From positions 28,837-68,439 of the forward strand of contig PBAZ01000021.1 in the NCBI GenBank assembly GCA_002717565.1: 39,603 bases of DNA. The letters are read 5' to 3'. Positions 1 through 19,434 of this stretch are shown piece by piece. Made by a program: the position numbers and the translations under genes. Each line of letters begins with the position of its first letter. The stretch's first letter is position 1. The notes below the pieces were generated by a model, which saw only the letters and a program-made list of their open reading frames with translations, did not search any database and was not told the DNA's origin. The stretch is from Chloroflexota bacterium. GTDB lineage: Bacteria > Chloroflexota > Dehalococcoidia > Lucifugimonadales > GCA-2717565.

Positions 1-1116
1 TTCTTGAAACTGTCTGCCTTCCAGGACGATTTGCTCGACTGGATGGAACACCAGCCTCATTGGCGTACTAACGTTTCGAACTCGAGTCGGAGCTTTCTGC
101 AAAGCGGATTGAAGGACAGAGCAATAACGCGGGATTTGAATTGGGGTGTTCCGATCCCAATGGAAGGATATGAAGACAAGCGCATCTATGTCTGGTTCGA
201 AGCGGTAATCGGCTACCTGTCCGCCGCGATAGAATGGGCTGGGCAATCCGACGACTCTAGCGCTTGGTTGGATTTTTGGAAGGATAAAAATACAAAAAGC
301 TATTACTTTATTGGGAAAGATAACATACCTTTCCATAGTATTATTTGGCCGGCCATAATTATGGCATACGGCCATGATCTTAACTTACCCTATGACGTCC
401 CTGCCAATGAATTCCTCAGCTTGGAAAGTCGCAAATTCTCTACAAGTCAAAACTGGGCCCTATGGGTGCCTGATTATCTGGAATATTATGATCCTGACCC
501 CCTCAGATATATGTTAACGATGAACATGCCAGAGACCGGAGATTCGGACTTCAGCTGGGCAGAATTCATTCGCAGAAATAACGATGAATTGGTCTCTACC
601 TACGGCAATCTTGTAAACCGGATATTATCTTTCACGTATCGGAACTTTGATGGCTTAGTGCCTGAACCCAATGACTTACATGAGTCTGACCTCGGTTTAT
701 TAAAGACCTCTGAAGACGTGTTAGCTAGTGTGCTAGAGACCCTGGAAGCCGTGAAGATACGACAGTCACTGAACCAGATCTTCAGTTTGGCTCAAGAAAC
801 CAATAGGTATTTAGATGCCAAAGCGCCTTGGAAAGAAATTAAAACGGATAAAGCTTCTGCAGGGACTACCTTGTGGGTTGGGATAAATATTTTAAACAGA
901 CTCAAGATTATGTTAACTCCGTTTCTACCGTTCACCAGCCAGAAGCTTCATGAATTCTTAGGCTTTCAAGGGGATGTTAGCTCTGAACCCTGGCCCGACG
1001 ATTGGAGCACAACTCTCGTCTCTGGCGGAACTCCCTTGGCATCTCCCACTCCGTTGTACTCCAAGCTAGATGTTGATGTAGGAATCCCAGGTGAATCTGC
1101 CTTGGAGAGAGGATAA
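1..1116 (+). CDS. metG: Methionyl-tRNA synthetase, C-terminal part (5' truncated by window edge)
   Basis: DLNWGVPIP, YVWFEAVIGYLSA, YFIGKDNIPFHSIIWPA, KFSTS (KMSKS-equivalent) followed by DPDPLRYMLTMNMPETGDSDFSW. Continuous frame open to the window start; the ORF-track TTG at 4 is not a real start. Confidence 0.93.
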   Translation, partial: FLKLSAFQDDLLDWMEHQPHWRTNVSNSSRSFLQSGLKDRAITRDLNWGVPIPMEGYEDKRIYVWFEAVIGYLSAAIEWAGQSDDSSAWLDFWKDKNTKSYYFIGKDNIPFHSIIWPAIIMAYGHDLNLPYDVPANEFLSLESRKFSTSQNWALWVPDYLEYYDPDPLRYMLTMNMPETGDSDFSWAEFIRRNNDELVSTYGNLVNRILSFTYRNFDGLVPEPNDLHESDLGLLKTSEDVLASVLETLEAVKIRQSLNQIFSLAQETNRYLDAKAPWKEIKTDKASAGTTLWVGINILNRLKIMLTPFLPFTSQKLHEFLGFQGDVSSEPWPDDWSTTLVSGGTPLASPTPLYSKLDVDVGIPGESALERG

Positions 1117-18658: not shown

Positions 18659-19420
18659 TTATATAAGCTGGGCTGGTGTGAAAATCCCTTCCATATCTTG
18701 TTCCGTGGCTGGGTCTTCTGCAGTCATATTCAGCTCGGTTTCCATGAACCAATAGATTTGCTTCAGGTGATGTGTACTATGGCTTAGGATTATGTTAAGT
18801 AACTCCAAAACTGTCACTTCACCACCATAGTGGGCAGGTACAACCCGGTCAAAGGCATCTTCATTTTCACTGTTAAGGAACTTCACTATATCTTGTCGCA
18901 CAGTCTCGCCATACTGGCATATCTGGTCTGAAGTTATGACATCGCTCAGCCTCTCCCTAATAGCCTGCATATCATCGGTACTCATACTCCCATGTTCATG
19001 ACTCTTCCAAGCAAGTTCAGGAAACGAGATGATATGTACGATGGAATCCCTGACTCGCTCAGGTCTCCACGGAACGTCTCGTAGGAGTTGATCTGGCGTT
19101 AATTGTTGAGCCGCTCTCATTGCTGCCGATAAGATCAAGTCATACTTTTCAGCCAACCAGCTCGTTCGACCAGAATGCTCTAATGCCGTGGTCAAATTGA
19201 GCGCGGGAATCAGTTTTTTCGGGTAATAACCGATTATCACTTCCGACCCATCTATTATAGTAACGGGCGCAGCCTTAATGCCTCGTGATTCAAGATCTAG
19301 CCGTGCTGGTTCGTCTGTTAAGAGGTCGTGGTGTTCAAAATGAACTCCATTTGATCGTAAGAACTCTTCCAGAGTTCGACAACTGAATCAACCAGGGTTG
19401 GTATAAACGTGTACATCCAT
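18659..19420 (-). CDS. Predicted selenoprotein: glutaredoxin-like domain (UxxC) fused to a DinB-like domain; in-frame TGA at codon 11
   Basis: Reverse-strand translation from ATG 19420: MDVHVYTNPG[TGA]FSCRTLEEFLRSNGVHFEHHDLLTDEPARLDLESRGIKAAPVTIIDGSEVIIGYYPKKLIPAL..., continuous with the ORF-track 18659..19240 (DinB-like, HSTHHLKQIYWFM). Grx beta-alpha-beta pattern, cis-Pro motif APVT, SD GAGGAG 8 nt before ATG. Confidence 0.85.
19354..19383 (-). promoter_or_regulatory. Candidate bacterial SECIS element
   Basis: RNA after the UGA: UUCAGUUGUC-GAACUC-UGGAA-GAGUUC-UUACGAUC. Perfect 6-bp upper stem with a UGGAA loop starting 17 nt after the UGA. Lower stem UUGU/ACGA (one U-G) across a C/UU internal loop. 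Confidence 0.68.
19388..19390 (-). other. In-frame UGA, candidate selenocysteine codon
   Basis: TGA at codon 11 at the position of the first active-site Cys of a glutaredoxin CxxC (PG-U-F-S-C). TGA functions as a normal stop elsewhere in the window (e.g. 2105..2107). Confidence 0.82.
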
Positions 19421-19428
19421 TTTGTAAG

Positions 19429-19434
19429 CTCCTC
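19429..19434 (-). promoter_or_regulatory. Shine-Dalgarno for the Grx-DinB gene
   Basis: Reverse strand GAGGAG-cttacaaa-ATG; 8-nt spacing. Confidence 0.7.

Follow-up and report, generated by a model that had tools for sequence, protein, structure and literature searches.

A probable selenoprotein in which a UxxC redoxin is fused to a DinB/YfiT domain

A DinB-like open reading frame on the minus strand of the window (the whole 39,603-nt stretch of DNA that was analysed) raises the question of whether an in-frame TGA upstream of its start codon encodes selenocysteine (Sec). The plain open reading frame (18659-19240) starts at a GTG at 19240, which is located inside a redoxin domain, as the preliminary description had supposed when it placed this start in the middle of a domain. 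The sequence also bears out that the same frame runs upstream through one TGA to an ATG at 19420, which follows GAGGAG. The frame from 19420 to 18659 comprises 253 codons, and the TGA at codon 11 is its sole interruption. When TGA is translated as U, Pfam detects Glutaredoxin (5.4e-8, residues 3-59) and DinB_2 (8.2e-7, residues 165-222), both above cut-off and both in one 253-aa frame, in agreement with the Grx-DinB fusion proposed earlier. The TGA corresponds to the first residue of the UxxC motif, which is the first catalytic position of the redoxin domain. Judged by the sequence comparisons given below, the identity and architecture of the locus are very probably those of a genuine selenoprotein, an NrdH/cGrx1-type UxxC redoxin fused to a DinB/YfiT domain. 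Its features are as follows.

18659..19420, minus strand: predicted full selenoprotein gene, 253 aa, from ATG to TAA with TGA (Sec) as codon 11 (sequence and homologues)
19429..19434, minus strand: ribosome-binding site GAGGAG, 5´ of the ATG at 19420 (sequence)
19388..19390, minus strand: in-frame TGA, U11 of UxxC (same-column TGA or Cys in homologues)
19202..19414, minus strand: N-terminal redoxin domain, residues ~3-73, with U11, C14, cis-Pro P52 and G64 (Pfam PF00462, model, Foldseek, PDB profile)
18662..19165, minus strand: C-terminal DinB/YfiT (STL) domain, residues 86-253, with H129, H214 and H218 invariant (Pfam PF12867, alignments, Foldseek)
19361..19377, minus strand: predicted bSECIS apical hairpin, 7 bp (fold; family pairing and covariation)

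The TGA is conserved among the relatives of the gene. Among 294 genomes of the class, a protein search revealed full-length relatives with one TGA each, which occupies the first UxxC position in every relative that was read; the closest of the nearer relatives, found by an added search, shares 61% identity. When 250 genomes of the order were searched with a profile, 54 of them had matches. TGA is present in 62 of the 63 matches, two of which also contain TAG, and the lone match without TGA starts beyond the active site; every match that spans the active site has TGA. The TGA occupies the same column in the 39 distinct fusion loci checked, a count that leaves out one locus (L201) for which the motif search gave no resolution, and most fusion copies contain no further disruption. 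In one genome (G335; L055/L073), the Sec Grx-DinB gene seems to be frameshifted within its DinB half, possibly due to an assembly error. U11, C14, P52, G64, H129, H214, H218 and Q221 are invariant in an alignment of 15 sequences.

A scan of named genomes with a Cys motif yielded 80 loci, almost all of which encode full-length Grx-DinB proteins of Pseudomonadota. The Cys forms are distributed among Burkholderiales, Roseomonas and its relatives, Rhodospirillales and Halieaceae, with one locus labelled Marinimicrobia, and those in plasmid records are labelled 'glutaredoxin domain-containing protein' or 'DinB family protein'. When the Cys forms are included in the alignment, C/U11, C14, P52 and the three His are still invariant. 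Homologues thus show either TGA or Cys at the U11 column with conservation on both flanks, which is the pattern that the preliminary description had predicted. The tree, which has no fixed root, requires two state changes between the Sec and Cys forms, and f12, a Sec group from the same class, is placed with the Cys clade. The recurrence of the same-column TGA architecture in dozens of genomes, together with ~80 Cys counterparts, indicates that it did not arise by chance.

To either side of the GTG, the gene was compared with its counterpart in genome G485, a contig of which is syntenic with the window over ~17 kb at 71-73% nucleotide identity. Codons 1-60 (TGA omitted) differ by 27 synonymous changes and 1 non-synonymous change (dN 0.015, dS ~2.2), which indicates that the segment 5´ of the GTG is coding, and codons 61-253 differ by 105 synonymous and 7 non-synonymous changes. 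The TGA has persisted while silent sites became saturated. The upstream frame could alternatively be a decayed remnant, or the TGA a misread TGC or TGT, so that the true gene would encode a 193-aa DinB protein from GTG 19240; the plain list of open reading frames does start the gene there, and the bin that contains the window is both draft and chimeric. This reading is highly improbable, as the TGA is kept in the 39 checked loci, purifying selection extends 5´ of the GTG, most copies have no other disruption and the Cys homologues are full length. The order scan, the 39-locus conservation and the codon-change ratio rule it out in both of the forms against which the preliminary description had warned: sequencing error is excluded by a TGA that is kept across independent genomes near synonymous saturation, and decay is excluded by the 27:1 ratio in codons 1-60.

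A single in-frame TGA within an otherwise open frame would also be seen if the codon were read as Trp or another residue, by a variant code or by plain readthrough. The chance of this is minute, since TGA ends 12 of the 35 large open reading frames in the window, TGG is used as the Trp codon 193 times, several homologues themselves terminate at TGA, and tRNA-Sec and SelB are present. The homologues, moreover, show Cys and not Trp at this column. Recoding to Trp was excluded on the basis of the normal use of TGA as a stop in the window, the homologous Cys and the Sec machinery. A scan of the window for UxxC/CxxU-type motifs flanked by long open stretches gave no second selenoprotein candidate.

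The machinery for Sec insertion, whose absence would have weighed against the earlier proposal, is present in the bin (tRNA-Sec at 67 bits, SelA, two SelB and SelD) and in G485 (tRNA-Sec, SelA and SelB). Among the fusion-bearing genomes examined, tRNA-Sec was found in 15 of 16 (absent in G338), SelA in 15 of 16 (absent in G319), SelD in 12 of 13 (absent in G316) and SelB in all 7; the three genomes that lack one part are drafts, and each holds other parts of the machinery. The SelD gene of the bin (L019, G000:C1:265846-266766) itself contains an in-frame TGA and a GGA-loop hairpin, which are shared by most SelD genes of related genomes.

The bin (G000; contigs C8, C16 and C21; L011, L012, L225-L228) is chimeric, with a contamination of 4.9%. 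Its two SelB genes are found in one gene order, flanked by genes that we take from their sequences to be HemW-like and NurA-like, yet the two proteins are only 45% identical. The C16 SelB is 96% identical to the SelB of G485 (family f116), and the C8 SelB is nearest to that of G294, from the bin's own family. The 96% identity and the ~17-kb synteny indicate that the window contig most likely derives from an organism akin to G485 whose DNA entered the bin. The gene content hints at a possible Chloroflexota (SAR202/Dehalococcoidia) origin of the host. The idea that the two SelB represent two SECIS specificities for two hairpin types was rejected, since the C16 and C8 proteins reflect a mixed bin and SelD in the same genomes uses GGA-type beside GU-type loops.

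SelB and tRNA-Sec would insert Sec at the UGA of codon 11, aided by a stem-loop located just 3´ of it. Most Sec genes of the family contain a common type of hairpin, a 6-bp stem at +17..22/+28..33 (counted from the TGA) that is capped by an NGU loop (CGAAAG-AGUUU-CUUUCG). In this stem 98.8% of the cells are paired, two pairs show changes on both sides, and the covariation exceeds all 500 shuffles as well as slid versions. The Cys genes form 2-4 of these 6 pairs, despite encoding nearly the same residues. In the window subfamily, most members have a helix of 9 pairs at +11..19/+28..36 (83% paired), the covariation of which exceeds 500 of 500 shuffles. The window copy does not form this longer helix; a compact hairpin (GAACUCU-GGA-AGAGUUC) is present in the window and in L202, and is possible too in L051, L203 and L209. 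The 7-bp hairpin of the window, with a GGA loop that begins 18 nt past the UGA, folds at -7.6 kcal/mol and is weak by energy alone (z -1.1). Since it also shows no family-wide covariation, the SECIS of the window copy is a prediction, and its exact form is the least certain element of the gene. A fixed 6-bp hairpin at +11..16/+22..27, when tested across the window subfamily, gave covariation no better than shuffles and was rejected as a subfamily-wide SECIS, the 9-pair helix being better supported. The family hairpins, the same-column TGA, the Cys homologues, the Sec machinery and the selection on the upstream codons all agree with Sec at the UxxC position, as originally suggested.

The AlphaFold2 model (37 sequences) has a pLDDT of 94.7 and a pTM of 0.90. 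In Foldseek searches, the N-terminal part matches cGrx1 and NrdH, and the C-terminal part matches YizA and YjoA of B. subtilis. The N-terminal part shows a Trx fold with UxxC and a cis-Pro, among which U11, C14 and P52 are invariant, and the C-terminal part forms the four-helix bundle with three metal His that is typical of STL proteins. In the position of the GG glutathione-binding motif, G64 alone is kept and is followed by Tyr, as in NrdH. The full glutaredoxin layout described earlier is right as a layout, but the domain is nearer to redoxins of the NrdH/YruB/cGrx1 type than to classical glutathione glutaredoxins. Its NrdH-like features suggest thioredoxin reductase as a possible electron donor.

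The same class also contains many stand-alone UxxC glutaredoxins with an in-frame TGA, often of the GUGPCxMVKVYLS type (L027, L033, L035, L058, L059, L061-L063, L067, L074-L076 and others), which are likely to be unannotated Sec glutaredoxins. In L036 and L050, a UPYC glutaredoxin with TGA is followed by a longer C-terminal extension that looks PDZ-like by eye; L032, L034, L038 and L043 are their Cys counterparts.

In the window, the gene is adjoined by PAC2 and SDR genes and then by aldolase-SDR, MmgE/PrpD and CMD genes. In three genomes (L080-L082), two oligopeptide-type ABC permeases lie directly 5´ of the Sec Grx-DinB gene. Recurrent neighbours are MmgE/PrpD, luciferase-like monooxygenase and CoA-transferase. 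The Cys locus of Variovorax SRS16 contains SDR, a tripartite transporter, CoA transferase, acyl-CoA dehydrogenase and MmgE/PrpD, and that of Roseomonas marmotae (L188) contains an oligopeptide ABC transporter, isochorismatase, an AtzG-like protein and amidase. Counts of neighbouring genes revealed no single conserved partner; the neighbours differ between clades, and the theme that they share, catabolism, is broad. These neighbourhoods suggest a role in the degradation of organic compounds more than in general redox balance.

STL enzymes use a metal bound on three His to activate a low-molecular-weight thiol, and redoxins reduce mixed disulfides. By analogy, the thiol/selenol transferase role put forward in the preliminary description is plausible, and we tentatively propose, at somewhat less than even confidence, that metal-thiol activation by the DinB domain and dethiolation or thiol recycling by the Sec redoxin act jointly. 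The DinB domain would bind a divalent metal on its three His, and this site would activate a low-molecular-weight thiol for reaction with a catabolic intermediate that is electrophilic or forms disulfides. The Sec redoxin domain would then reduce the resulting mixed disulfide or recycle the thiol, which would unite thiol transfer and dethiolation in one polypeptide.

It is also possible, if a little doubtful, that the DinB domain of the selenoprotein is another kind of metal enzyme, such as a hydrolase or an isomerase (cf. maleylpyruvate isomerase), or a binder of substrate or partner, and that the redoxin performs general dithiol reduction. The DinB superfamily is diverse, an isomerase would suit the catabolic context, and characterised thiol transferases are only weakly similar (19.9 bits and E 0.00066 for the mycothiol transferase model NF047843, the cut-off of which is 170), whereas the metal-binding His triad and Q221 do not vary and a thiol-active redoxin partner is kept in every full-length member found. 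A selenoprotein for protein dethiolation or for defence against oxidant or metal stress, in which the DinB domain only anchors a thiol cofactor, would be in keeping with the typical antioxidant function of UxxC redoxins and with cGrx1 of Clostridium oremlandii as the nearest solved homologue; it is unlikely, as the Sec and Cys lineages both reside in catabolic, not stress-related, neighbourhoods. A new selenoenzyme class, in which one catalytic cycle would be shared by the Sec redoxin and a thiol-transferase domain with a His3-bound metal, is speculative and rather improbable. If such a cycle exists, the metal-bound thiol would add to, or be displaced from, the substrate and the selenol would remove the thiol reductively, providing a one-protein step of reductive detoxification or isomerisation in the catabolism of organic compounds.

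None of the 119 prokaryotic selenoprotein families and subfamilies in the 2026 inventory (PMC13188914) is a DinB entry, and no NCBIfam model covers a Grx-DinB fusion. Searches of open-licence papers retrieved no description of a selenoprotein that combines DinB with glutaredoxin and nothing on selenocysteine in SAR202. The prokaryotic selenoproteome would thus gain a two-domain family, with members in 54 of the 250 genomes scanned in one order. Since plain calling of open reading frames leaves only an orphan DinB domain, Sec Grx-DinB genes are probably concealed in public annotation. Among the Burkholderiales that can be cultured, Paraburkholderia xenovorans (LB400, L114:3977-4741) and Caballeronia carry Cys orthologues, in which the function is immediately accessible to tests, and the Sec/Cys pair permits a direct test of what selenium contributes to a redoxin coupled with a metal site.

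Among known systems, the redoxin domain resembles that of PDB 7c10/7c12, which we take to be cGrx1 of Clostridium oremlandii; both are UxxC redoxins, with ~40% identity over 73 residues and an rmsd of 0.8-1.0. In contrast to cGrx1, which is a single 84-aa domain, the window protein has an additional fused DinB domain. cGrx1 of C. oremlandii is a known natural selenoprotein (refs 85 and 109 of PMC13188914). The STL/DinB-YfiT proteins (BstA-H of B. subtilis and mycothiol S-transferase) share the four-helix bundle and three metal His, and H67/H160/H164 of BstA resemble H129/H214/H218 of the window protein in pattern; they contain neither a redoxin domain nor Sec, and their structural identity to the window protein is ~10-19%. 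All eight B. subtilis STL proteins, including YizA and YjoA, act as bacillithiol transferases that depend on a metal and conserve three His (PMC5815605). The NCBIfam families UXX-star (NF041212) and HUGP/GUXX-star (NF045501), the latter a fusion, also carry Sec in a glutaredoxin-like domain, but the window protein scores far under their cut-offs (31.2 bits against 66 and 13.9 bits against 325, respectively) and the models lack a DinB part. The Cys Grx-DinB proteins of Pseudomonadota align with the window protein over the full length and have both domains in the same order; they differ in having CxxC for UxxC and no hairpin, at 20-26% identity.
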